Assembly: GCA_020442065.1 (NCBI GenBank)
Contig: JAGRKZ010000014.1
Location: 1-64,000 of the forward strand
From: Bauldia sp.
GTDB taxonomy: Bacteria > Pseudomonadota > Alphaproteobacteria > Rhizobiales > Kaistiaceae
Direction of reading: 5' to 3'
Length of the DNA: 64,000 nt
Position numbers and translations under genes: made by a program. Below the pieces are notes generated by a model. That model was given only the letters and a program-made list of their open reading frames with translations. It did not search any database and was not told where the DNA came from. Of this stretch, positions 15,167 to 29,779 are shown one piece after another. Positions within the stretch are counted from its first letter, which is position 1. Each line of letters begins with the position of its first letter.

Positions 15167-16315
15167 TTACTTACAGCCGGTGTCCGCGACGCAGGCCGAC
15201 ACTAGCTCCTCCGGCGGATCCTCGTGGAAGACCTGCCGATAGGACTCGGTGAGGTTGCTCGGAAGGACGGGCACTGCCGGCAGAACGATCCACGGCGGCG
15301 GCTGGTTGCCGAGCAGCGTCTGCAGGGCGGCTTCAGCTTCCGCGACACCCTGGTCGTAAGGCTGCTGAGCCGCGATCCCCTTGATCAGGCCGCAGCTCGC
15401 GAGTTCGATGCCGGCCTCTATCCCGAGGTCGATGGTGACCACCGGCAGGTCCTTGCCCTGGGCGCGAAGGGCGCTTGCCACCTGCATCGCAGGCGCGTCC
15501 CACACCACGAAAAGCCCACTCACGTCGGGGTTGGCGGTTAGAAAGTTCGCGGCAACGTCGCCGGCCTTCGTGGTATCGACGAAATCGACCTGCTTCAGCG
15601 TCACGTCCGGCCGATTCTTCTCGAACCAGGCTCTCACCTGGCGGGTCCGCTCGTTGGTGGTGAAGAAGTCGACGCCGAAGTCCACGATCCCCACCACGCC
15701 GCCATCGGGGATGTGGGCGGCAAGGATCTGCGCCGCAACCTGGCCGTTGCCGCGATTGTCGGGAGAGATCACCGCCTGGTAGTCGTCCGGATACTTCAGC
15801 CCCTGCGGAACCTGGTGCATTAGGATCAGCTTGATGCCCGCGTCGGAGATCGTCTTGTAGGCGGCAGCAGTGGCCGTATTGTCGACGGGGATCGAAATGA
15901 TCGCCTGCGGCTTTAGCTGAATCATGTCGCCGATCTGTGCGATCTGCTTGTCCACTTGGAAGCTCGGATTGGTGACGCCGACCAACTCCGCGCCATACTT
16001 GCCGAGCGTGTCGGTGATTCCGGCGACGACCAGCTTCGACCAGTCGATGTCCATCGTCTGCATCACCACGCCGACCTTGAACTTGCCTGCCCGAGCCTGC
16101 TCGGCCTGCGCGTCGGTCAGCTTGACAGAATCGATGGTCGACGGCGCCTCGCCGAACGGACCGCTGCCGACGATGCCCGGCGGGATCAGCGACGCGACAT
16201 CGAGGGTGTTTGCGACATCGCAACCCGCGGCGTTGGCCGAGGTCAGGCTGCCAAACGAAATCAACGCGGCAGTGCCCAGCCACCGCGCCGCCCTTCCTGG
16301 TCTTCTCAAGTCCAT
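15167..16315 (-). CDS. Periplasmic sugar-binding protein, second of operon 2
   Basis: The 382-residue protein starts at ATG 16315 with AGGAGG seven bases upstream. A leader (WLGTAALISFGSLTSANAA, cleavage near residue 30) precedes a Peripla_BP_4 fold that starts FKVGVVMQTMDIDWSK. It is a clear paralogue of the proteins at 23036 and 26028, sharing QIAQIGDMI, DAIISIPV-type and PYDQG stretches. Cys32, Cys near ASCGLIKG and two Cys at the C-terminus may pair. It follows two permeases and is bracketed by hairpins, so it is probably made in larger amounts than they are. The ligand is unknown. Confidence 0.9.
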   Translation of the reverse strand: MDLRRPGRAARWLGTAALISFGSLTSANAAGCDVANTLDVASLIPPGIVGSGPFGEAPSTIDSVKLTDAQAEQARAGKFKVGVVMQTMDIDWSKLVVAGITDTLGKYGAELVGVTNPSFQVDKQIAQIGDMIQLKPQAIISIPVDNTATAAAYKTISDAGIKLILMHQVPQGLKYPDDYQAVISPDNRGNGQVAAQILAAHIPDGGVVGIVDFGVDFFTTNERTRQVRAWFEKNRPDVTLKQVDFVDTTKAGDVAANFLTANPDVSGLFVVWDAPAMQVASALRAQGKDLPVVTIDLGIEAGIELASCGLIKGIAAQQPYDQGVAEAEAALQTLLGNQPPPWIVLPAVPVLPSNLTESYRQVFHEDPPEELVSACVADTGCK

Positions 16316-16377: not shown

Positions 16378-17322
16378 TCAACCGCGGCTCATCGAGACCG
16401 ACAGCCAGATGATCAGTCCCTTCACGATGATCTGGATCGATGGATCGACGCCGATCAGCACGAGGCCGTTGCCGAGGATGCCGATGATCAGGCTGCCGAT
16501 GAGCGTGCCGATCACCGTGCCGCGACCGCCCGACAGCGCGGCGCCGCCGAGGATCACGGCCGTGATCGCGTCGAGCTCGAGACCGGCGCCGACGTCGGGC
16601 CGCGCCGCATGGGCCCGCGCGCTCAGCACAAGACCCGCGAGCCCGGCGAGAAACCCGGCGAGTGTCAGCGATATGACTTTGACCCGAATGACCGGGATGC
16701 CCGAATAGCGCGCCGCGGTCGGATTTCCCCCGGCCGCGTACACGGCTCTGCCGAACCCCGTGAAATGCAGCGCGATGATCCCGCCGAGAATGACCACGAC
16801 CGTCCAGACGATCGGCGTCGGCACGCCGAGGAAATGCCCCTCGCCGAAAATCGCGAAGTAGCTGCGGTTGGTGATAACGACCGGCCGGGTATCGGTGATC
16901 AGCATCACGATCCCCCGCGCGATGCTGAGCGAGCCGAGAGTGATCAGGAACGAGGGGATCCGAAGGCGCGTGGTGAGGATGCCGTTGAGCAGTCCGACCG
17001 CGGCGCCGGTAGCGAGACCGGCCAAGGCACCGATCGCCGCGTACTGCGCGATCTCCTTCATAGCGATCGCCGAAATCACGCCGGCGAGGGCCAGTGTGGA
17101 GCCGACGGAGAGATCGAACTCGCCGGAGACAATGACGAAAGTCATTCCCACAGCGATGATCGACACGAGCGCCGTCTGGCGGCCGATGTTCTCGAGATTG
17201 CCGAGCGTCAAGAACACCGGCGAGGCGATCGAGAAGAAGACGACCAGGGCGACCAGAGCACCGACCAGGAGGCCCTCGGCGCTGAAGGCGCGCGCGCGCA
17301 GCGTGGTGGCGATGCCGTCCAT
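16378..17322 (-). CDS. Ribose-type ABC permease, second of a tandem pair
   Basis: The 314-residue RbsC-family protein carries ISGEFDLSVGS-type (here VSGEFDLSVGSTLALAG), SFLITLGSLSIARG and GGAALSGGRGTVIGTLIGSL motifs and about eight to ten membrane segments. It is closely similar along its whole length to the permease immediately upstream, so the two come from a local duplication. Only three bases separate the genes. The pair probably forms a heterodimeric channel fed by the binding proteins at 15167 and 23036. Confidence 0.92.
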   Translation of the reverse strand: MDGIATTLRARAFSAEGLLVGALVALVVFFSIASPVFLTLGNLENIGRQTALVSIIAVGMTFVIVSGEFDLSVGSTLALAGVISAIAMKEIAQYAAIGALAGLATGAAVGLLNGILTTRLRIPSFLITLGSLSIARGIVMLITDTRPVVITNRSYFAIFGEGHFLGVPTPIVWTVVVILGGIIALHFTGFGRAVYAAGGNPTAARYSGIPVIRVKVISLTLAGFLAGLAGLVLSARAHAARPDVGAGLELDAITAVILGGAALSGGRGTVIGTLIGSLIIGILGNGLVLIGVDPSIQIIVKGLIIWLSVSMSRG

Positions 17323-17325
17323 GGA

Positions 17326-18294
17326 TCATCGTTTCCCGAGGGCGACCGCGAACCAGATTATGAGCCCCTTGACTGCAAGCTGCAGCGAGGGGTCGACGCC
17401 AACCAAGTTGAGGCCATTGTTGAGGATGCCAATCATCAGGCTGCCGATGAGGGCGCCGATGACGGTGCCACGACCGCCCGAGAGCGCCGCGCCGCCAAGG
17501 ATCACCGCCGCGATGACATCGAGTTCGATGCCCGCGCCTGCATCGGGTCGCGCGGCGTGGGAACGCGCCGTCAGGACAAGCGCGGCGAGTCCGGCGAGCG
17601 TTCCGGCAATGACCAGGCAGATCGTCTTGACGCGGCGCGTGTTGATCCCCGTGTAGCGGGCCGCGGTGGCGTTGCCGCCGGTAGCATAGATCTTCCGCCC
17701 GAAGGTCGAGAAGTGGAGGAGGACGATTCCGGCTAGGGCGACGACGATGGTCCACACGATCGGCACCGGAACGCCGAGGACATATCCTTCCCCAAAGATT
17801 CTGTAATAGGATTCGTCGACGATGTTGATCGGCCGCGTTCCCGTGACGAGGAGGGCCAGACCTCGCGCGATGCTAAGCGATCCGAGGGTGATCAGGAACG
17901 AGGGGATCGAGAGGAGGGTCGTGAGAAGCCCGTTGACAAGGCCAACCGCGGCACCGGTGGCAATCGCGACAACCGCCCCGACGATCCACACATCGCCAAG
18001 GCCCTGCATGGCGAGCGCCGCCGCGACGCCGGCCAGCGCCATCACCGATCCAACGGAGAGATCGAACTCGCCCGAGATAATCACCAGCGTCATACCGACG
18101 GCCATGATCGAGACCAGCGCCGTCTGCCGCCCGACATTGGCGAAATTCTCGGTCGTGAGGAATACTGGCGAAGCGATCGCGAAGATGACGATCAGGGCGA
18201 CGAAGGCGACGTAGAGCATACGCCCGGAGAGGAGCGTCGACCTCAGGACATCTGCGGCGCTTCTCGGGGGGCCCGCGGCAACGTCTGATGTCAT
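17326..18294 (-). CDS. Ribose-type ABC permease, first of a tandem pair
   Basis: Starting at ATG 18294, which overlaps the ATPase stop by four bases, this 322-residue protein shares ISGEFDLSVGSVMALAG, SFLITLGSLSIARG and GGAALSGGRGTVIGALIGSL with its neighbour. A longer upstream reading lies inside the ATPase gene and is rejected. About nine hydrophobic segments are visible. It is a sugar-transport channel subunit. Nothing in it shows the substrate. Confidence 0.92.
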   Translation of the reverse strand: MTSDVAAGPPRSAADVLRSTLLSGRMLYVAFVALIVIFAIASPVFLTTENFANVGRQTALVSIMAVGMTLVIISGEFDLSVGSVMALAGVAAALAMQGLGDVWIVGAVVAIATGAAVGLVNGLLTTLLSIPSFLITLGSLSIARGLALLVTGTRPINIVDESYYRIFGEGYVLGVPVPIVWTIVVALAGIVLLHFSTFGRKIYATGGNATAARYTGINTRRVKTICLVIAGTLAGLAALVLTARSHAARPDAGAGIELDVIAAVILGGAALSGGRGTVIGALIGSLMIGILNNGLNLVGVDPSLQLAVKGLIIWFAVALGKR

Positions 18295-19829
18295 CCTTGT
18301 GCCTCCTGGACGAGCTGGTGAAGATGTTCCTCGCTTTCGATCGCGGCGCGCTCGAACTCCGACCTGATCTGGCCGTCGACGACAATGGCGACCCGATCGC
18401 ACAGCATCGCCAGTTCGCCGAGGTCGGAGGACACGACCAGGACAGCCGAGCCCTGGCTGGCGGCTCGCCGGATCAGGTCGTAGATCTGGCCACGCGCACC
18501 CACATCGACGCCGACCGTCGGCTCGTCCAAGAGCAGGATCGCTGGCGTCGGATCGCGCCATTTGCCGAAGACAACCTTCTGCTGGTTACCGCCCGATAGG
18601 CCGCGGACGGGCACGCGGATTCCTGGCGTCTTGATCGAAAGGTCGTCGACCGCGTCGCGAGCCCGCCGGCTGGAGGCGTCCCGATTGAGAATCCCGAAAT
18701 GGGTGAGTTGCTTCAGCCTGGGCATCGCAATGTTGCGTTCGATCGAGTGGTCGAGCACCAGGCCTTGCAGGTGGCGGTCCTCGGGAACGAGCGCGATCCC
18801 GTGCCGGATCGCGTCTATCGAGCTGCCGAGGACCACTGGCTTGCCCCGAAGGCGGTATTCGCCGGAGCCAGCCCGGCGGAGCCCAAACACGGTCTCGAGG
18901 ATTTCGGTGCGGCCGCTGCCGATCATTCCGGCAAGGCCGACCACCTCGCCGGCTCGAAGCGACAGGCTCAGCCCCTTCAGCCGGTCATTGCGGACATCTG
19001 TGAGCTGGACAACCGCCGGACCTGGCTCCCCGGCCACTGGGCGCGGTACTGTTGTCTGCGCCGGCCGGGCCGACGCCGCAGGGCCAAGGATGGCGCTCAC
19101 CAGCGATGCGATGCTGCTGTCCTTGGTTAGGAAGGTCGCCGCGTTTTGCCCGTCGCGGAGCACCGTCACCCGTTGCGCCAGTCGAAAGACCTCGCCGAGG
19201 CGGTGTGTGACATAGATGACCCCTACGCCGCGCCGCGTCACTTCCTCAACGGCCTTGAAGAGGATTGCCTCCTCGCCTCCGGAGAGCGACGAGGTCGGCT
19301 CGTCGAGCACGAGGATGCGGACGTCCCCGAGCAGCGCCTTGGCGATCTCGGTGAGCTGGCGGTAGGCGAATGGGAGGTCGCCGACGATCGCCTTGGGGTC
19401 GAGGTGGAAGCCGTGCTCGTCGAGGAACCGTTTCGCCGACTGATGGATCTCGCCACGCCGCGCGATGCCGAACCGCCGCGGCTCGCGGTTGAGAAACAGA
19501 TTGTCGGCGACCGTCATCGACGGAACCAGGCTGAGTTCCTGGTAGACGACCGATATGCCCGCCGACCGCGCCCCCGATGGCGTGCGATAGTCTACATCGC
19601 GGCCGTCGACCGAAATCGTCCCGCCGTCGCGCGCCAGGACGCCGGCGAGGATCTTGATCAGGGTCGACTTGCCGGCCCCGTTCTGGCCGAGAAGTGCGTG
19701 GACTTCACCCGCCTGGAGCTCGAAGCTCACGTCGCGGAGCGCTCGCACCGCGCCGAAGCTCTTCGATATTCCCCGGAACGACACGATCGGAGGTTCGGGG
19801 GAACCCACGGCTGCGGCGGAAGCGTTCAT
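18291..19829 (-). CDS. RbsA-type sugar ABC transporter ATPase (two ABC domains), operon 2
   Basis: The 512-residue protein has two ABC domains. The first has Walker A GQNGAGKST, an LSG-like VGDLPFAYRQ signature region and Walker B ILVLDEPTSSL. The second has GLAGMIGSGRTE, a proper LSGGNQQK signature and LLLDEPTVGVD. As in RbsA and MglA, the first signature and the second Walker A are degenerate. The start at 19829 follows GGTGGGG. It is downstream of the Gfo/Idh gene and overlaps the first permease. It supplies energy for import of the operon-2 sugar. Confidence 0.92.
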   Translation of the reverse strand: MNASAAAVGSPEPPIVSFRGISKSFGAVRALRDVSFELQAGEVHALLGQNGAGKSTLIKILAGVLARDGGTISVDGRDVDYRTPSGARSAGISVVYQELSLVPSMTVADNLFLNREPRRFGIARRGEIHQSAKRFLDEHGFHLDPKAIVGDLPFAYRQLTEIAKALLGDVRILVLDEPTSSLSGGEEAILFKAVEEVTRRGVGVIYVTHRLGEVFRLAQRVTVLRDGQNAATFLTKDSSIASLVSAILGPAASARPAQTTVPRPVAGEPGPAVVQLTDVRNDRLKGLSLSLRAGEVVGLAGMIGSGRTEILETVFGLRRAGSGEYRLRGKPVVLGSSIDAIRHGIALVPEDRHLQGLVLDHSIERNIAMPRLKQLTHFGILNRDASSRRARDAVDDLSIKTPGIRVPVRGLSGGNQQKVVFGKWRDPTPAILLLDEPTVGVDVGARGQIYDLIRRAASQGSAVLVVSSDLGELAMLCDRVAIVVDGQIRSEFERAAIESEEHLHQLVQEAQG

Positions 19830-19855
19830 CGGCTGGCTACCCCACCTGGCGCGCC

Positions 19856-21025
19856 TCAGTTGCCGACCGCGACCCAGCGCTCGGTCGCTCCCGATTCGAG
19901 GATCGCGTCGGCAATCAGCGAAATGCGGTATCCGTCCTCGAAGTTGGGCGACGGCAGCTCGCCGCCGACGATGGCGCTGAAGAAGTCGAAGCATTCGATA
20001 ATCTTGGTCTCGCCGTAACCGATGCCGAGGCCGGGGATCGGCCAGAGGTTGGCCCCGTACGGATGGCTCGGGCCGGTGTAGACGGTGCGGAAGCCGCGCG
20101 CATCGCCCGCGTCCGACGCGAACATCACCTGCAACTCGTCGAGGCGCTCGTAGTTGAAGGCGATCGACCCCTCGGTGCCGTGTATCTCGAAGGTGAGGAA
20201 GTTGTTGCGTCCGTGGGCATTGCGCGTCGCCTCTATCGAGCCGACCGCACCATTTTGGAACTTGAGGAGGGTGATGAACTCATCGTCGACATCGACCGTG
20301 CCGCGCGGCCCTTCGCCCGACTTGTCGGACGCACCGAGCATATCGAACCCGCCGGACTGGATCGGGCGCGTCGGCACATAGTTCTGGACTATGGCATTGA
20401 CGGCACTGATTTCGCCGACGAGGTAGCGGGCGAAGTCGATGACATGGGTGCCGATGTCACCGAGGGCGCCCGAGCCGGCGACATCCTTCTGGAAGCGCCA
20501 GGAGAGCGGGCCGTTGGGGTCGGCTGACCAGTCCTGCAGGTAGGTTCCCCGGAAGTTCAGGATTCTGCCGATCCGGCCCTCGTCGATGTACTTCTTCGCG
20601 AGAGCGACCGCCGGCGTCCGGCGGTAGTTGAAGGCGACCATGTGGATCGCGCCGGATGTGCGCGCCGCGTCGAGCATGGTCTTGGCCTCGACACCATTCC
20701 GCGCCAGCGGCTTCTCGCAGATCACGTGCTTGCCGGCCTTCAGGGCGGCGATCGCGATCTCGGCGTGACGATCGTTCGGCGTGACGATGTCGACGACGTC
20801 TATGTCGTTTCGCGCGACAACGGTGCGATAGTCGGTCGCCGACTCCTCGAAACCGTAGCGCGCCGCACCGTCCGCCGCCAGCTCGGGCGTGACGTCGACC
20901 AGCACCTTCCGGCAGGCGAGCGCGGGCGCCGGCCAGAAGAACATCGGCATCGCCGCATAAGCCATCGAATGGGCCTTGCCCATGAAGCCGCCGCCGATCA
21001 TTGCTACGTTGAGTTGTCGGGTCAT
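19856..21025 (-). CDS. Gfo/Idh/MocA family NAD(P)-dependent sugar dehydrogenase
   Basis: The 389-residue protein has the Rossmann motif GGGFMG (residues 11-16), the EKP motif (Glu104-Lys105-Pro106) and a GDIGTHVIDFARYL segment, where Asp and His are the usual catalytic residues. Family members oxidise sugars, inositols or glycosides, often at C3 or C1. It lies between the IolE-like isomerase and the ABC ATPase in operon 2. A glycoside or inositol oxidase role is likely. The exact position oxidised is not visible. Confidence 0.9.
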   Translation of the reverse strand: MTRQLNVAMIGGGFMGKAHSMAYAAMPMFFWPAPALACRKVLVDVTPELAADGAARYGFEESATDYRTVVARNDIDVVDIVTPNDRHAEIAIAALKAGKHVICEKPLARNGVEAKTMLDAARTSGAIHMVAFNYRRTPAVALAKKYIDEGRIGRILNFRGTYLQDWSADPNGPLSWRFQKDVAGSGALGDIGTHVIDFARYLVGEISAVNAIVQNYVPTRPIQSGGFDMLGASDKSGEGPRGTVDVDDEFITLLKFQNGAVGSIEATRNAHGRNNFLTFEIHGTEGSIAFNYERLDELQVMFASDAGDARGFRTVYTGPSHPYGANLWPIPGLGIGYGETKIIECFDFFSAIVGGELPSPNFEDGYRISLIADAILESGATERWVAVGN

Positions 21026-22106: not shown

Positions 22107-22991
22107 TCAGTTCTTGAAGAACTTGATGTACTCGGCCGCGAGCTGCTCAGGGCATTCCTCCGCGAGCTGATGGCCGCGCGGCAGGATCACGCCCCGCACG
22201 TTCTTCGCCACTTCCCGCATCTGGCGCTCGTTGTCTTCAGCAATGAAATACTTGCTGCCGACCGCGAGCACCGGCATCTTCAGTTTCTTCTTTGCCGATT
22301 CCCGGTTCTGACGGCCGCTTTCGAGCGTGGCGCGGTAGATGTTGAAGCAGCAGCGAAGCCCGCCCGGCGACGAATAGCAGCGGATGTATTCGTTGAGATT
22401 GTCCTCGCTGATCGCCGTCGGATCGTGGCACTCGTGCTTGATGAAGTAGGTGAAATACTCTCGTTCCTTGCCGGTGATCAGAAGTTCTGGAAAGTCCGGC
22501 ACGTTGTAGAAATTGATGTGCCAGAGCCAGACATAGGTGCTCACGTTCTTCTCGGTGAGGAACGAGTAGTCCTCAAGGCCGTAGCCCGGGAGGATCATCT
22601 CCTGGTAGACGAGCCGCTTGACGCGGTCGGGATGGTTGGCAGCGAGCTGATACGCCGTCGACGCCCCCCAGTCCTCCCCGGCGAGGTTGAAGGTTTTGTA
22701 CCCGAGATGGGTGGCGAGCTCCGCGATGTCCTCGCCCATGTTCTTCATGTCATAGCCGACGACGGGGTGCTCGGAGTCGCCCAGCCCGCGAAGGTCTGGC
22801 GCGATGACGCGAAAATGCGGCGTCAGCAGAGGGATCACGTGCCGCCAATGATAATGGGTCTTCGGGACGCCGTGGAGGAGGAAGAGCGGCTCCCCCTCCC
22901 CGGCGGTCACATAGTGCAGTCGGACGCCATTGACCTTGGCTCGTCCGTGCTCCACCGGCTGGCCGGTGTGATCCACGATCGGTGCGGGCAT
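22107..22991 (-). CDS. Alpha/beta hydrolase of the epoxide hydrolase/haloalkane dehalogenase type
   Basis: Start 22991 has GGGAGGA seven bases upstream and gives 294 residues. The oxyanion motif His40-Gly-Val-Pro43 and the nucleophile elbow GED(107)WGAS show an Asp nucleophile rather than Ser. His274 in PRGHQLAEECPEQ completes the triad. Epoxide hydrolases and fluoroacetate or haloacetate dehalogenases share this layout. It follows the binding protein at 23036 and precedes the isomerase gene, which is odd company for this class and suggests an aglycone or ester-like part of the substrate. Confidence 0.85.
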   Translation of the reverse strand: MPAPIVDHTGQPVEHGRAKVNGVRLHYVTAGEGEPLFLLHGVPKTHYHWRHVIPLLTPHFRVIAPDLRGLGDSEHPVVGYDMKNMGEDIAELATHLGYKTFNLAGEDWGASTAYQLAANHPDRVKRLVYQEMILPGYGLEDYSFLTEKNVSTYVWLWHINFYNVPDFPELLITGKEREYFTYFIKHECHDPTAISEDNLNEYIRCYSSPGGLRCCFNIYRATLESGRQNRESAKKKLKMPVLAVGSKYFIAEDNERQMREVAKNVRGVILPRGHQLAEECPEQLAAEYIKFFKN

Positions 22992-23035
22992 GTTCCTGTC
23001 CTCCCTTTGGGCTTTTTTGTTGAGGGGCTGCGGCG

Positions 23036-24169
23036 CTACTTGCCGGCGCAGACCGGATTGCTGTCGCAGGCCTCCTTGAGGTCGTCCGGCACCGGCAGGT
23101 GGAAGACGGTGTCCCATGCCTGAAGGACGTTATTCTGGATCACGGGCACGGCGGCGTAGGCGAGGAAGGGGGGCAGCTCCTTGCCGAGCAGGCTGCCCAT
23201 TGCCGCATTGGCCTCGGTGATGCCCTGGTCGTACGGTACCTGCGAGGCCAGCCCCTTGATCATGCCGCCCTTGGCGAGTTCGATCGCGACGTCACCCTCG
23301 AGATTGATGGTGACGCTCGGGATGTCCTTGCCCTGGGCGCGGGCGGCCGAGGCCGCGTCGAGGCCCGGACCGGACCACTCAGTGAACAGACCGGCAATGT
23401 TGGGATTTGCGGTGAGAAAGCTTTCCGCCACCTTGCCAGCGTCGCTCGGGTTGAGGAATGGGGCTTCCTTGATCACGACATCCGGACGGTTCTTGGCCAT
23501 CCAGTCCTTGAAGCCCTTGGTACGCTCGTTGGTGACGTAGAAGGAGATGCCGAACCAGACGACACCGACCTCGGCATTCTCCGGAAGGTAGGGTGAGAGG
23601 ATCGCCGCCGACACCGCGCCGAGCCCCTGGCTGTCCGAGGAAACCACAGTCACGTAGTCCGTCCCGTGCTTCAGCCCCGCGGGGACGTTGTCCATCATCA
23701 CCAGCTTGATGCCGGCTTCCTGGATCTTCTTGTACGTCGCGGCGGTCGCGACATCGTCCACCGGGATCGAAATGATCGCGTCGGGCTTCAAAAGGATCAT
23801 GTCGCCGATCTGGGCGATCTGCTTTTCGACGGTGAAGTCGGGGTTGGTAACGCTGACGACCTGACCGCCGCAGCGCGCCAATCCATCGGTGATGCCGCGA
23901 ACCTGCTCCGTCGACCACTCGATGTTCATCGTCTGCATGACGATGCCGACCTTGAATCCCTTCTCCTTGGCGGCGGCGCACTCCTCATCCGTCAGCCACG
24001 CGAGCTTAGGGTCCGATGCGGTATCGCCGGCCTGGCTGGGACCGACGATGCCCTTGGGCACCAGGGTGGCAGCGTCGACCTTTGCCATCGGATCGTCCGC
24101 AAGCGCAGCCGTGAGGCCGACAAGGCACATCACGGCGGCTGACACCGAACTCAGAAAATGGGACTTCAT
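23036..24169 (-). CDS. Periplasmic sugar-binding protein, first of operon 2
   Basis: The 377-residue protein has a clear leader (SSVSAAVMCLVGLTAALA, cleavage near residue 24) and a Peripla_BP_4 fold opening with FKVGIVMQTMNIEWST. It is paralogous to the proteins at 15167 and 26028. Start 24169 follows GGAGGAAA. It is first in the presumed 10-kb operon that ends with the GH50-like gene, so one transporter may use two binding proteins. Two C-terminal cysteines (EACDSNPVCAGK) match a similar pair in the other paralogue. A promoter with an AT-rich operator lies just upstream. Confidence 0.92.
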   Translation of the reverse strand: MKSHFLSSVSAAVMCLVGLTAALADDPMAKVDAATLVPKGIVGPSQAGDTASDPKLAWLTDEECAAAKEKGFKVGIVMQTMNIEWSTEQVRGITDGLARCGGQVVSVTNPDFTVEKQIAQIGDMILLKPDAIISIPVDDVATAATYKKIQEAGIKLVMMDNVPAGLKHGTDYVTVVSSDSQGLGAVSAAILSPYLPENAEVGVVWFGISFYVTNERTKGFKDWMAKNRPDVVIKEAPFLNPSDAGKVAESFLTANPNIAGLFTEWSGPGLDAASAARAQGKDIPSVTINLEGDVAIELAKGGMIKGLASQVPYDQGITEANAAMGSLLGKELPPFLAYAAVPVIQNNVLQAWDTVFHLPVPDDLKEACDSNPVCAGK

Positions 24170-24192: not shown

Positions 24193-24205
24193 TATTTCAC
24201 AAATA
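24193..24205. promoter_or_regulatory. Putative ROK operator
   Basis: TATTTCACAAATA has perfect 5-base inverted arms with a 3-base spacer, like the AT-rich boxes bound by ROK regulators such as NagC and Mlc. It overlaps the -10 of the proposed promoter of the binding-protein gene, and the ROK gene is divergent from it. Confidence 0.45.
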
Positions 24206-24232
24206 CTAATTCTGATAATATACAAAAGTCAA
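24203..24232 (-). promoter_or_regulatory. Putative sigma-70 promoter of operon 2
   Basis: On the minus strand TTGACT (24232-24227) and TAGTAT (24208-24203) are separated by 18 bases, 34 bases upstream of the binding-protein start. The surrounding 24180-24290 segment is far more AT-rich than the window as a whole. Confidence 0.55.
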
Positions 24233-24438: not shown

Positions 24439-25857
24439 ATGACCCTTGAACACGACACACTGGGGCTCCCGATTTTGGAGGGAGCGCGGCAACAGCGGCG
24501 CCCTCAGCGGATCGACGGCGAGCATTTCAGCCTTGCCTTGATCCTGAACTTGATCCGCTCGGGTCAGGCGACGACGCGACTGGAGATCGAACGCCAGTCG
24601 GGGCTCGGCCGTGCTGTCGTGATCGACCGTCTGGCAACGCTGATGGAAAGGGGACTTGTCGCTGAGGGCGACCTTGGCCCGACTACCGGAGGAAGAGCGC
24701 CCAGGAATTTTCGCTTCCGCAGCGAAGCCGGAATGCTGCTTGTCGCTGTCCTCGGGCCCTCGACGGTTGGTGTGGCGTTGGCGGATTTATCCGGACGGCT
24801 CCGAATCGAACACCACGAGTCGATCGACATGAGCGTCGGTCCAGCCCTTGTCCTCAGGCGGCTGCAGACGCTTTTCGACTGGATTATTGACCAGCAGGAC
24901 CAGAGCAGCCGCGAGGTCTGGGGCATCGGTCTGGCGGTTTCCACCCCGGTCTCGCCGGCACCCACGGGGCTGCTTAGCGCGGCAACCCTGCCGTCCGTTC
25001 CCGGCTGGGCGGACTTCCCATTCACGCAACATCTTGCTGTCCGCTATGGTGCGCCGGTCTGGGTCGGCAACCGCATCCACATGATGGCTCTCGGTGAGCA
25101 GCGAGCCGGAAGCGGCGTCGGCGTCAATGACATGGTCTTCGTCCATCTTGGCAGGCAGATTGGCGCCGGCATTATCACCGAAGGCCGCCTTCACAGCGGG
25201 GCTCAGGGCGGGGCCGGCCTAATCGGCCACATCGCCACCGGAGACGACAACCGCGCCATATGTCGTTGCGGCAATGTCGGGTGCCTCGAAACGGTTGCAG
25301 GCACCGATGCAATCGTTCGCCAGGCACTGCAGGCTGCGCAGGATGGTCGTAGCGCAATGCTCGCAGACTCGGTGGCCGCATCGCGCGGAATCGATGTGGC
25401 CGAGGTCGGCTCGGCGGCTCAGTCGGGTGACGCCTTTTGTGCTGAGCTGATGTCGCGCTGTGGACGCCAGGTGGGGACGGCTCTCTCGGCGGTCGTCAAC
25501 ACATTCAATCCGTCTCTGATTATTCTCGGCGGAGCAATCGCACAGACCAGCGACATGTTGATCGCCGCGATCCGTGAAGGAATCTTCCGGAAGTCCCATC
25601 CCTTGCTGTCGCGAGATCTGCGTATCGCGAGGTCTCAGATGGGAAGCTCGGCCGCCTTGGTGGGTGCCTCGATGACAATCGTCGATGATCTGTTGTCAAC
25701 CCCTTCGATCAGCCTGTGGGTGGATGATGGGTCCCCCCTAGCCCATTCCACGGTGGCAAACATTCTCGCCCTATCGAAACAGACAATCAGCATGAACGAG
25801 CCACGCCCGGCTCCCCCCGAGCCCCCGGCGCCACGCCGCCGGTCCCTTCGGCCATGA
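24439..25857 (+). CDS. ROK family transcriptional regulator
   Basis: The 472-residue protein (ATG 24439, with GAGGTG ten bases upstream; a GTG at 24424 is possible) has an N-terminal winged helix (ALILNLIRSGQATTRLEIERQSGLGRAVVIDRLATLMERGLV). A ROK domain follows with the zinc motif CRCGNVGCLE near residue 280 and GGAIAQT near 375. The DxGGT phosphate loop of ROK kinases is replaced by LGPSTVG, so it should be a regulator without kinase activity. The C-terminus is Pro/Arg-rich. It is divergent from operon 2 and upstream of a signal-less binding-protein paralogue. Confidence 0.9.
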   Translation: MTLEHDTLGLPILEGARQQRRPQRIDGEHFSLALILNLIRSGQATTRLEIERQSGLGRAVVIDRLATLMERGLVAEGDLGPTTGGRAPRNFRFRSEAGMLLVAVLGPSTVGVALADLSGRLRIEHHESIDMSVGPALVLRRLQTLFDWIIDQQDQSSREVWGIGLAVSTPVSPAPTGLLSAATLPSVPGWADFPFTQHLAVRYGAPVWVGNRIHMMALGEQRAGSGVGVNDMVFVHLGRQIGAGIITEGRLHSGAQGGAGLIGHIATGDDNRAICRCGNVGCLETVAGTDAIVRQALQAAQDGRSAMLADSVAASRGIDVAEVGSAAQSGDAFCAELMSRCGRQVGTALSAVVNTFNPSLIILGGAIAQTSDMLIAAIREGIFRKSHPLLSRDLRIARSQMGSSAALVGASMTIVDDLLSTPSISLWVDDGSPLAHSTVANILALSKQTISMNEPRPAPPEPPAPRRRSLRP

Positions 25858-26027
25858 TATCGCTATGGATGAACAATGCGAGCCAAAGCGGGCGCAAACG
25901 CCCATACTGCAGTCTGGATTCCAGCGCGGCGGGCGGCGGCAGGCTAGAAAAGCGGCGCACGTCTCGGGCGCGACGATAGCGCAGGGGAAAAGCAACGAGC
26001 ACTGCGCGTACAGGGGAAGAACGTCGG

Positions 26028-27029
26028 ATGGCCATTACGGGACTTGGGCCGCATGGTGAGCAGGCAGTCCCTCCGCACCACCTGCGACTCACGCACGCGG
26101 AGGCAGAGCTCGCCAGGAAATGCCAGTTCACTGTCGCCGTGGTGCTCCACACGACGAGCAGCGACTGGTCAAAACAACAGATTGCCGGAATTGTTGCAAC
26201 TCTGGGCGAATACTCCGCTGCGGTTATCGATGTTGTAGATTGCGGGTTCAGCGAGGCTGTTCAGAATAGTGCACTTGATCGTCTGACGCGGGACACTCCG
26301 GATGCGATCATCAGCATTCCTATTGGCAATGCTGCGGTTGCTGACGGGCATCGTTCAGTCTCTCGTGCTGGCGTGAAACTCATATTACTCGACAACGCCC
26401 CTACCGGTCTCCTTCCGGGCAAGGACTACGTCAGCGTGGTTTCTGCTGACAATTTTGGCCTGGGCCAGATCGGCGCTGAACTGCTGTCGCCATATGTTGA
26501 AGAGGGAGCTTCCATCGGGATCATTTCCTATGGTGTCGACTTTTTCGTAACAAACCAGCGTGAAATAGCCTTCCGGAAATGGATGGAGACGGAGCGGCCG
26601 GACATCAGAATGAGGTCCGCCCGCTTCATCGACGTCAACTTGGTGGCGCCGGTGGTCGACGGGGTTCTTGCAGCCAATGCCGACATCCAGGGTCTTTTTG
26701 CGGTCTGGGATGAACCCGCGATGCAGGCCGTCGCAGCCCTGAAGTCACGGGGGAGGCAGCTACCCCTGACCACCGTCGATCTCGGCAATGAGGCGGCGCT
26801 CGAACTGGGCAGCGGGGGCATGATCAAGGGGATCGGTGCTCAGCGGCCCTACGATCAGGGTGTGACCGCGGCAGTGGCGGCTTTGCAGGTCCTGGTCGGT
26901 CGGAGTCCGCCGCCGTGGGTAGCCTCGCCGGGCCTGTCTGTGACACGGCGCAATGTCCTCGAGGCCTACCAATTGATTTGGCATTCGCCGGCTCCGCAGC
27001 AGCTAATATCCGCTCGTCAGAGGGCGTAG
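26028..27029 (+). CDS. Cytoplasmic sugar-binding-protein paralogue without signal peptide
   Basis: The 333-residue protein aligns along its whole length with the periplasmic binding proteins at 15167 and 23036 (VAVVLHTTSSDWSKQQI, DAIISIPIGNAAVADGHR, SYGVDFFVTNQRE, GLFAVWDEPAMQAV, GIGAQRPYDQGV). It begins at the point matching GIVG in the mature proteins, so the leader and about 40 residues are absent. The frame is closed upstream by TAG at 25977, and no frame in the 170 bases before it encodes a hydrophobic leader. It lies directly after the ROK gene in the same direction, and GGGGAAG precedes its ATG. It may be a cytosolic sugar sensor. Decay is the alternative. Confidence 0.85.
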   Translation: MAITGLGPHGEQAVPPHHLRLTHAEAELARKCQFTVAVVLHTTSSDWSKQQIAGIVATLGEYSAAVIDVVDCGFSEAVQNSALDRLTRDTPDAIISIPIGNAAVADGHRSVSRAGVKLILLDNAPTGLLPGKDYVSVVSADNFGLGQIGAELLSPYVEEGASIGIISYGVDFFVTNQREIAFRKWMETERPDIRMRSARFIDVNLVAPVVDGVLAANADIQGLFAVWDEPAMQAVAALKSRGRQLPLTTVDLGNEAALELGSGGMIKGIGAQRPYDQGVTAAVAALQVLVGRSPPPWVASPGLSVTRRNVLEAYQLIWHSPAPQQLISARQRA

Positions 27030-27330: not shown

Positions 27331-27641
27331 GTCTTCACCGAGACCTCGTGTGCCTGCGGGGTCTTGCGCCAACCGCCGCGGGTCCGCGACGAGCGAATAG
27401 TCTATCTCGACGCCGCCTTCGCGGCATCCGCCACGCCATCAATCGCGGCGTAGACATCCGCGGCATCTTCGTATGGACCCTGCTCAACGATTTCGAGGGG
27501 GACGCCGGGTTCGGCGCATAATACGGCATCACCTACGGTCGACTCTCCACCCAGGCGCGTATCCCCAAGAACAACGCGATGTGGCTGCGCGATGTCGCGG
27601 CAGCCAACGGCCTGATGCCGCTCGGCGAGGCCGAGGCCTGA
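27331..27641 (+). pseudogene. Decayed 3' end of a GH1 beta-glucosidase gene
   Basis: Three open pieces together read like the C-terminal third of family GH1. VFTETSCACG and then PPRVRDERIVYLDAAFAAS are in one frame. A frameshift near 27425 leads to HAINRGVDIRGIFVWTLLNDFE. A TAA at 27519-27521 is followed in the same frame by YGITYGRLSTQARIPKNNAMWLRDV up to TGA 27641. In intact enzymes these correspond to the TENG nucleophile strand (Glu retained here as TET), the AI..GVDvRGYFvWSLLDNFEW motif and the C-terminal RIPKdSa.WyrdVi helix. The N-terminal part is missing: the 300 bases upstream show nothing recognisable. Confidence 0.7.
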
Positions 27642-27686: not shown

Positions 27687-28121
27687 CTAGGTGGACTGTT
27701 CGGGCGTCGGGCGATAAATGGGGCCCCGATCGATGACGGGTTGCAAAAGTCCATCTTGTAGATATTCCGACGGCGCGTCGGGGTCGATCGGGCGTCTCTC
27801 CTGTCCTGGATACCCGATGAGCTGCATGACCCGCGGATTCATATAGTAGGCTGCTGATGCGACGAGTCCGATAGTCGCGAGCGCCCCCGGGTCGGACTCG
27901 TTCAGCGCGCGGGCCGCACCTTCCGGCTCCTTGCCCGCCATGGCGGCAAGGCCGCGAATGAAGGTTTCGAGAAGGTCGTCCCGTAGCGTGAGAATCCGGT
28001 CCAGCGGCGCGCCTCCTACGTCAACCGTACTGGCTGCCGGCATTGCGCCATACGCCGGAATGAGAATGTCGGCAACCGCGACGAAGGTTTCGCGCAGTTC
28101 GTCGTCAATGATGCCACTCAT
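27687..28121 (-). CDS. Gluconate 2-dehydrogenase subunit 3-like protein (LacA-like), no Tat leader
   Basis: The 144-residue protein fits the small subunit of three-part GMC dehydrogenases: ETFVAVADILIPAYGAMPAAS at the start, a helical middle, and YYMNPRVMQLIGYPGQERRPIDPD near the end. The start overlaps the GMC gene stop by four bases. The usual subunit carries a Tat leader and drags the catalytic subunit to the periplasm. Here the chain opens MSGIIDDELRETF with no twin arginine or hydrophobic stretch, so the complex should stay in the cytoplasm. No cytochrome c subunit gene follows. Confidence 0.8.
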   Translation of the reverse strand: MSGIIDDELRETFVAVADILIPAYGAMPAASTVDVGGAPLDRILTLRDDLLETFIRGLAAMAGKEPEGAARALNESDPGALATIGLVASAAYYMNPRVMQLIGYPGQERRPIDPDAPSEYLQDGLLQPVIDRGPIYRPTPEQST

Positions 28122-29779
28122 GCTGCTACCTTCATGTTGCGGCGGTCAGCGATCAAATGCTTAACGCTGCGCAGCGCTACGGCACAGATTGTCCCGGTCG
28201 GATTAAATCCGGCGGATGTCACGAACACGCTGCCATCATAGACAAACAGGTTGGGGACGTCGTGAGACCGTCCCCATTGATTGACGACAGACGTACGAGG
28301 GTCGTTACCCATCTTGCATGTTCCCATGAGATGCCCGGTGGCGCGCAGGCTGGCACCGGTATTGTGCTCGCTCCGGTCGGTCATCAAGCCGCGCACCGTC
28401 ACCGATGTCGCGCCGGCCGCCTCCATGGCCTCTTTCGCCCGGGCAAGGTGGAACTCCGAGAGGCGCTTGGTGTTTTCCGAGTAGTCGTAGATGATCTTGG
28501 CGGCCGGAATGCCATCGCTGTCCGCGAGCTCCGGGTCCAGGACGACCCGATTCGCTTCTTCCGGCAAGTCTTCGGCCATGATGCCCCATTCGAACGAGCG
28601 GCCGAAGATGCGGTCGCGGTTCTGGTGGAATGCCGGACCCCAGGCCTCGTCGAACGGCCGGCCAGGGGCGGGCGGACCGCCCAACGGACCGCCGCCAGGT
28701 AGCACGTGCCACTTGGCGCCGCGCACAAACCCTCGGCTCGTGTCCGTCTCATAGAATTGCATCGACTGGATCGGCTGCCCCGCTGGTCCCAGCCAGCTCT
28801 CGAGCCAGTCGTCGAAATGCCCGACAACAGTCGAGTAAGGATGCAGCATCAGGTTCCGACCAACCAGGCCCGACGAATTGGCGAGCCCATCGGGAAAGAG
28901 GGACGACTTCGAGTTGAGAAGCAGCCGCGGCGTCCCGACACCATTGCAGCAGACGATCACTGCGCGCGCCAGCTGACGCCGTTCGCGACCGTTGCGGTCG
29001 ATATAGACCGCGCCGGTGGCAAGGCCCTGGTCGTTGACAAGGATCTCCCGCACGCGCGCCCCGGCCACCAACCTGAGGCCGTGCTTCAGCGCCGCGGGAA
29101 GATGGGTCACATCGAACGTCGCCTTGGCGCCCTCGACGCAGCCGTTCCGGCATGTGCCCCTGAGAGCACAGGGATTGCGGCCTTCAAATGACCGCGAGGC
29201 AATCGAGTTCGGCGCCGGCCACCAGTGCCAGCCAAGCTTGTTCATACCCTCGGCAGCCTTGCGTCCCATGCGGCCAATGGGCAGTGCCGGCAAAGGGGGT
29301 CCCTTGCCGGCCGGCAGTGCCGGATCGCCTCCGAGACCGGAGACGCCGATCTCCGCTTCCATTTCGTCGTAGTAGGGGGCGAGGTCCTCGTAGGTGAAGG
29401 GCCAGTCGTCCGCCACCCCATCAAGCGTCTGCACCCGGAAGTCGGACGGCATGAAGCGCTGCCAATGCGCTCCATAGACGATCGATGTCCCTCCGACAGC
29501 ATTGTACATCAGGATCGGGACGTCGGATTCCGAGGTGTTTACCGGATAGTCGCTTTCCAGATCCCGCACATTCGGATTGGGATGCCAGCGTTTTTGAATC
29601 ATCAGTTCGAACTCGGGCTTGTCGCCCCAGTAGCTGCCGTGGTCGACACGCTCGCCCTGCTCCAGGCAAACTACGTCGAATCCGCTCTGCGTCAGGTGCT
29701 TCGCGGCAACGAGCCCCGAGGGACCGGCGCCGACGATCAAGACTTCGGCGACTTTGGAACCCTTGTTCACCGATACCAT
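28118..29779 (-). CDS. GMC-type FAD sugar dehydrogenase, catalytic subunit (LacB-like)
   Basis: The 553-residue protein has the FAD motif VGAGPSG (residues 16-22), the GGTSIVYGAHWQRF segment of GMC enzymes and the C-terminal GHLMGTCKMG and FNPTGTICA motifs, which carry the catalytic His and Asn. Cys204, Cys210 and Cys214 (NPCALRGTCRNGC) match the cysteine-rich loop of sugar dehydrogenases that hold a small Fe-S cluster. Relatives oxidise gluconate or the C3 of glycosides. It is divergent from etfB, with a shared 260-base control region, so electrons probably go to that ETF. Confidence 0.88.
   Translation of the reverse strand: MVSVNKGSKVAEVLIVGAGPSGLVAAKHLTQSGFDVVCLEQGERVDHGSYWGDKPEFELMIQKRWHPNPNVRDLESDYPVNTSESDVPILMYNAVGGTSIVYGAHWQRFMPSDFRVQTLDGVADDWPFTYEDLAPYYDEMEAEIGVSGLGGDPALPAGKGPPLPALPIGRMGRKAAEGMNKLGWHWWPAPNSIASRSFEGRNPCALRGTCRNGCVEGAKATFDVTHLPAALKHGLRLVAGARVREILVNDQGLATGAVYIDRNGRERRQLARAVIVCCNGVGTPRLLLNSKSSLFPDGLANSSGLVGRNLMLHPYSTVVGHFDDWLESWLGPAGQPIQSMQFYETDTSRGFVRGAKWHVLPGGGPLGGPPAPGRPFDEAWGPAFHQNRDRIFGRSFEWGIMAEDLPEEANRVVLDPELADSDGIPAAKIIYDYSENTKRLSEFHLARAKEAMEAAGATSVTVRGLMTDRSEHNTGASLRATGHLMGTCKMGNDPRTSVVNQWGRSHDVPNLFVYDGSVFVTSAGFNPTGTICAVALRSVKHLIADRRNMKVAA

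Follow-up and report, generated by a model that had tools for sequence, protein, structure and literature searches.

A gene for a ROK-family repressor is followed on the same strand by a gene for a sugar-binding protein without a leader in the window (the whole 64,000-nucleotide stretch of Bauldia DNA that was analyzed), and we give roughly three chances in four to the reading that the two products form a split sugar-responsive repressor. The more specific proposal is that sensing has been handed from the ROK protein to a copy of the importer's binding protein that stays in the cytoplasm, making a two-protein levoglucosan repressor; this is likely too, with somewhat less assurance. What can be read from sequence is a conserved pairing, the loss of the leader, a sugar pocket that one partner retains and the other has lost, a conserved palindrome in the control region, and a levoglucosan context. 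We know of no earlier case of a ROK protein with a binding-protein co-sensor.

The gene pair and its relatives

The two genes are these:
24439 to 25857, plus strand: ROK-family repressor with a winged-helix N-terminus; sugar-site Asp replaced by Arg and Glu by Leu, His and zinc cysteines kept
26028 to 27029, plus strand: leaderless Peripla_BP_4 protein of 333 aa, candidate cytoplasmic levoglucosan sensor (from the ORF, Pfam, AlphaFold and orthologues)

An earlier note on this DNA had described a leaderless binding protein 3' of a same-strand ROK gene, and both open reading frames and both domains are confirmed, with Pfam giving ROK (PF00480) at 2e-44 for the first product and Peripla_BP_4 at 1.1e-30, covering the whole domain, for the second. 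The AlphaFold2 model of the 26028 product has a pLDDT of 94 and a ribose-binding-protein fold (VIA-align Z = 33), and domain and model together make it a type I binding protein. The ROK model, with a pLDDT of 84, is close to Lmo0178 and Mlc; the PF00480 match, the N-terminal winged helix and the Mlc-like fold all place this protein in the ROK family. The closest proteins to the 26028 product in the window are the exported binding proteins encoded at 15167 (45%) and 23036 (38%), and the alignment to both does start at their mature GIVG region, as the note had it. Its statement that no upstream frame could encode a leader also holds. An in-frame stop lies 5' of the ATG at 26028 with just 16 charged residues between them, and neither a signal peptide nor a lipoprotein leader is present. 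A leader hidden in another frame was considered and rejected, as there is none in the window translations or in any orthologue. In the records examined, the leaderless protein is annotated as a plain substrate-binding protein, so a sensor of this kind is easily mistaken for a transport component.

Related genomes and GTDB species contigs were searched, giving 40 rows including the window (Bauldia litoralis is counted twice, as L009 and L038), with orthologues about 47 to 61% identical. The hosts are Mesorhizobium, Bauldia, Gemmobacter and other Rhodobacterales, Agrobacterium-like bacteria, Lichenifustis, and unnamed Alphaproteobacteria, with one row being a metagenome-assembled genome labelled Chloroflexi. 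The protein starts 4 to 17 residues before the motif GLGPHGE (in which H is once R) in 40/40 rows, and the peak N-terminal hydropathy of these proteins is mostly below 0.7 with a maximum of 1.33, compared with 1.6 to 2.8 in 29 exported relatives. Absence of the leader is a property of the whole family, and secretion, which the earlier note had named as an observation that would speak against a sensor, is at the level of sequence indicated in none of its members.

The same note had proposed looking for the pair in related genomes. A same-strand ROK gene is found directly 5' in all 39 of the loci that have readable upstream DNA. The two genes overlap by 4 bp (ATGA) in 11 of these loci, which argues for one transcript, and where the overlap occurs the arrangement suggests that their translation is probably coupled; in the window they are separated by a gap of 170 bp. 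Among the matches listed, plasmid sequences at more than 49% identity have an adjacent ROK gene in at least 11 of 13 cases. In the trees, the leaderless proteins form one clade (98/98), as do the partner ROKs (100/99). Decay in close relatives, another observation that was to count against the idea, is not seen, since dN/dS for the leaderless gene is 0.04 to 0.12 there, indicating purifying selection. On contig C150 the window's genome carries another complete pair (61% identical), and dN/dS between the window gene and this second full copy is 0.16. Also on C150, at L110:2609-2842, there is a truncated leaderless copy that matches at 65% over the first 80 residues and then runs into unrelated sequence; it is a decayed third copy.

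The sugar sites of the two partners

Pocket columns in the binding proteins were mapped through E. coli RbsB, using what we take to be its pocket positions. The leaderless proteins read H, S, W, x, I/L, D, N, R, x, W, V/I, D, Q, and the exported binding proteins of levoglucosan clusters read H, N, W, x, I, D, N, R, x, W, (variable), D, Q, so that H41, D46, W47, D122, N123, R178, W227, D251 and Q272 of the leaderless protein are the same as the exported columns. The pocket difference is S45, fixed in the leaderless clade, versus an Asn fixed in the exported group; other fixed differences are T42, C72, R85, W185, R190 and F200. Conversely, K75, K78, E232 and D244 (window numbering of the aligned columns) are fixed in the exported proteins, and the leaderless clade is free at these positions. 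The window's own exported proteins, at 15167-16315 and 23036-24169, have Gln for the His and Ile for the Asn, and the leaderless protein keeps the His. The window leaderless protein thus has the usual levoglucosan-type pocket while both window exported proteins are partly different, which suggests that the local substrate is perhaps not exactly levoglucosan; judging by these residues it could be a levoglucosan derivative.

The ROK sugar site consists of an Asn-Asp pair and an ExGH motif, and both are visible in the alignments of Mlc and of a Vibrio Mlc homologue. None of the 29 partner ROKs retains the sugar-site Asp, the position being taken by Ser, Gly, Ala, Arg, Lys or Glu. The acidic ExGH residue is lost along with it in 28 of the 29; the remaining one, from L041, is the deepest paired ROK and has Asp in the Glu position, so the Glu itself is lost in 29/29. 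The ExGH His is missing from 13/29 and the zinc cysteines (CxCGxxGC) from 17/29, and the window ROK keeps both of these. Among 32 other ROKs, by comparison, Asp is present in 25 and the cysteines in 28, and both acidic residues are lost in 1. The tree sister of the partner ROKs is encoded in a levoglucosan cluster of Arthrobacter agilis where the leaderless gene is absent, and this lone ROK has the Asp, an Asp-x-Gly-His and the zinc cysteines all intact. An Agrobacterium plasmid (CP039912.1, L134) carries a ROK gene divergent from an exported binding protein gene, with Asp and Glu lost and no adjacent leaderless partner, so pocket loss alone is no proof of partnership. The pairing and the pocket loss each lie on one branch, so their association, although logically strong, counts as a single evolutionary event.

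The levoglucosan cluster and its control region

Divergent from the pair is an operon whose genes, together with the elements in between, are:
24205 to 24229, no strand: imperfect 25-bp palindrome, ACTAATTCTGATAATATACAAAAGT, candidate ROK operator, between the ROK gene and the divergent operon
24203 to 24232, minus strand: sigma-70-like predicted promoter of the divergent operon, TTGACT-18-TAGTAT, overlapped by the palindrome
23036 to 24169, minus strand: exported Peripla_BP_4 binding protein, first gene of the operon; pocket partly unlike other levoglucosan-cluster binding proteins
22107 to 23117 (ORF limits; true start perhaps further downstream), minus strand: alpha/beta hydrolase, with an 85% identical gene in L035
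21107 to 21934, minus strand: xylose-isomerase-like TIM-barrel protein of 275 aa, LgdB1-like
19856 to 21025, minus strand: levoglucosan dehydrogenase LgdA (Gfo/Idh)
18291 to 19994 (ORF limits), minus strand: sugar ABC transporter ATPase
17326 to 18561 (ORF limits), minus strand: sugar ABC permease
16378 to 17322, minus strand: second sugar ABC permease
15167 to 16315, minus strand: second exported Peripla_BP_4 binding protein (from the ORF, Pfam and pocket alignment)

The 19856-21025 product passes the NCBIfam equivalog model for LgdA (NF052479.1) with 707.6 bits against a cut-off of 650, and hence we read the cluster as one for levoglucosan use. Its best solved relative is PDB ID: 6a3f (3.5e-192), and 6a3i, from the same entry series, is the levoglucosan dehydrogenase structure discussed in the available text of PMC10066097. 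The 275-aa neighbor of LgdA matches, in size and place, LgdB1 as that text presents it. Among 385 genomes sampled from the class, LgdA (E < 1e-120) was found in 3, and the pair in the same 3. The arrangement of LgdB1-like gene, exported binding protein, LgdA, ATPase and permease divergent from the ROK and leaderless genes recurs from Rhizobiales to Rhodobacterales. In four loci (L044, L050, L052, L053) a GMC oxidoreductase gene lies further on, with LgdA absent from the fetched stretch and the LgdB1-like gene, importer, ROK and leaderless gene present; these clusters are possibly for an alternative oxidation of the same sugar. The leaderless gene is absent from the non-alphaproteobacterial levoglucosan clusters in the stretches read, namely a Klebsiella plasmid with LacI, Metabacillus, Deinococcus, and Arthrobacter with its lone ROK.

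Some remnants and neighbors were seen along the way. At L034:3917-4243 there is a mere fragment of the exported binding protein (48% to the 23036 protein), for which relatives have a full gene. Just 3' of the window leaderless gene, a plus-strand frame at 27390-27570 is a stop-containing remnant, DIRGIFVWTLLNDFEGDAGFGA*YGITY..., that by eye looks like the C-terminal portion of a GH1 beta-glucosidase. Beyond it, at 27687-29779 on the minus strand, a GMC oxidoreductase is encoded beside a small protein of unknown family; the two may be a glucoside 3-dehydrogenase and its small subunit.

The palindrome search covered intergenic DNA upstream of ROK genes only. GCAAAAG/CAAAAGT is strongly enriched there, and inverted repeats of ACTTTTGC with a 9-bp spacer and at most 5 mismatches are found in 37 of 43 control regions versus 4.7% of shuffles, with no other spacing equally prominent. 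The alignment built from related loci has the consensus ACTTTTGCnGATTTAnnGCAAAAGT, and a recognizable version, ACTTCCGCACGCGACATACATAAGT, is found in the Arthrobacter cluster. In the window, the palindrome coincides with the independently called promoter of the divergent operon. A clear overlap with the -35 box is found in only 5 of the 37 loci, the window included, so we do not claim promoter occlusion for the whole family. When eight genomes were scanned more widely for operator sites, the counts did not rise above a reversed-pattern control.

Mechanism, alternatives, and known systems

The idea of the earlier note that the protein serves as a soluble sugar sensor acting with the regulator gains support from the conserved pair, the lack of decay, the missing leader and the kept pocket, and by these sequence criteria the leaderless protein is probably the sensor for the ROK protein. 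Support that goes beyond the note comes from the loss of the sugar site in the partner ROKs and from the conserved palindrome in the shared control region. In the mechanism that we propose, the ROK protein would bind the 25-bp palindrome and repress the divergent operon for levoglucosan transport and breakdown, itself being presumably no longer able to bind sugar. The leaderless protein, which is paralogous to the exported levoglucosan-binding protein, would remain in the cytoplasm and close on levoglucosan, or a closely related compound, after import; by direct contact it would alter the grip of the ROK protein on its operator, so that the operon is induced. What we infer is the ligand, which is probably a sugar, the physical contact between the partners, a repressing and not an activating role, and the state, ligand-bound or ligand-free, in which the sensor touches the ROK protein. 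With its 1,6 bridge and its hydroxyls axial, levoglucosan is probably of the wrong shape for a ROK glucose pocket, which would make that pocket a poor starting point, while the binding protein of the importer probably accommodates the sugar already.

It is unlikely that the leaderless protein is instead a cytoplasmic buffer or delivery protein supplying ligand to the pathway enzymes, merely sharing a transcript with a ROK protein that senses something else. Its pocket is conserved and its gene is always in a catabolic cluster, as such a role would have it, but the gene tracks ROK and not LgdA (the four loci with no LgdA in the fetched stretch keep the pair), it is absent, in the stretches read, from levoglucosan clusters with LacI or an intact ROK, and the loss of the ROK sugar site would be left unexplained. 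That loss also bears on whether the ROK protein might still sense a ligand such as glucose or a keto-sugar through an altered pocket, with the leaderless protein as a second input or for fine-tuning. The His and zinc cysteines kept by the window ROK are in favor, as is the occurrence of altered motifs without a partner, as in L134; however, the varied replacements of the Asp and the many losses of His and cysteines suggest relaxed constraint and not a new fixed pocket, and we regard continued sensing by the ROK protein as decidedly unlikely.

Being a paralogue of the transporter's own binding protein, the leaderless protein might act on the transporter from inside, by inducer exclusion or uptake feedback, and not on the ROK protein. 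Binding proteins dock on the outer face of the permease, the leaderless clade is free at residues such as K75, K78, E232 and D244, as expected when permease contact is absent, and the gene overlap is with ROK, not with a permease; an action on the transporter is highly improbable. Barely credible is that the 26028 frame is an exported binding protein copy in decay, or a mis-annotated one. Its third-position GC is below that of its window neighbors, a decayed GH1-like remnant lies just downstream, and the genome has a truncated leaderless copy at another place. Against this, the frame is intact with a full domain and an invariant pocket, every orthologue is leaderless, and dN/dS is low both between relatives and to the other full copy. 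The GC3 difference between the leaderless gene and LgdA is mostly small at other loci, and for the family, selection and conservation rule out decay despite the low GC3 of the window copy.

If the split repressor is real, the ROK family, limited by its inherited sugar pocket, would have gained a new inducer through a copied importer binding protein minus its leader, which would be a natural route for regulators to acquire new ligands. As the sensor would be a separate module, it offers a natural template for biosensors. Levoglucosan is a sugar found in smoke and char, and a regulator and sensor for it would be relevant to post-fire carbon cycling and to the biotechnology of pyrolysis sugars.

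Compared with solved regulators, the window ROK shares its fold, with winged-helix and ROK domains, with E. coli Mlc (1z6r, 3bp8) and Listeria Lmo0178 (5f7q). Mlc is also controlled by protein contact, in its case with the EIIB domain of the glucose PTS (complex 3bp8). The pair differs from Mlc in the loss of the Asp and Glu, in having no PTS protein, and in its partner, a binding-protein paralogue whose gene is adjacent. With RbsB-type (CUT2) binding proteins, the leaderless protein shares the fold and the pocket positions, and it is unlike them in that no member has a signal peptide, a repressor gene is paired with it, and several residues fixed in the exported group are lost. The cluster as a whole is like known levoglucosan dehydrogenase clusters in having LgdA, an LgdB1-like enzyme and an ABC importer, and ROK-type regulators are noted among the cluster neighbors there, but the available text of PMC7676230 and PMC10066097 describes neither an additional binding protein without a leader nor a connection of such a protein with ROK. 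A literature search for ROK proteins with a leaderless binding protein, in which subscription journals were mostly outside coverage, gave nothing relevant.

AmiC is of another binding-protein family than the leaderless protein, its ligand is an amide and its partner AmiR is an antiterminator; the likeness is in the periplasmic-binding-protein fold and in a cytoplasmic place, where AmiC senses the inducer as is proposed for the leaderless protein. In the amidase operon of Pseudomonas aeruginosa, AmiC is the cytoplasmic sensor that controls AmiR by complex formation, according to the passages of PMC9602780 and PMC3795266 that cite O'Hara et al. 1999. The premise of the earlier note that binding proteins are normally useless in the cytoplasm needs qualifying, as AmiC and NasS are exceptions (PMC3795266). 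NasS, from nitrate assimilation in Paracoccus and Azotobacter, is a leaderless paralogue of an ABC nitrate-binding protein with the ligand residues retained; its gene adjoins that of the regulator NasT, for which it serves as cytoplasmic sensor (PMC3795266). The present pair is of the same kind, a leaderless binding protein with its ligand residues adjoining the gene of its regulator, and the difference lies in the regulator and the ligand: NasT is an ANTAR RNA-binding antiterminator and that system's ligand is nitrate/nitrite, as against a DNA-binding ROK protein and, probably, a sugar in the present pair.
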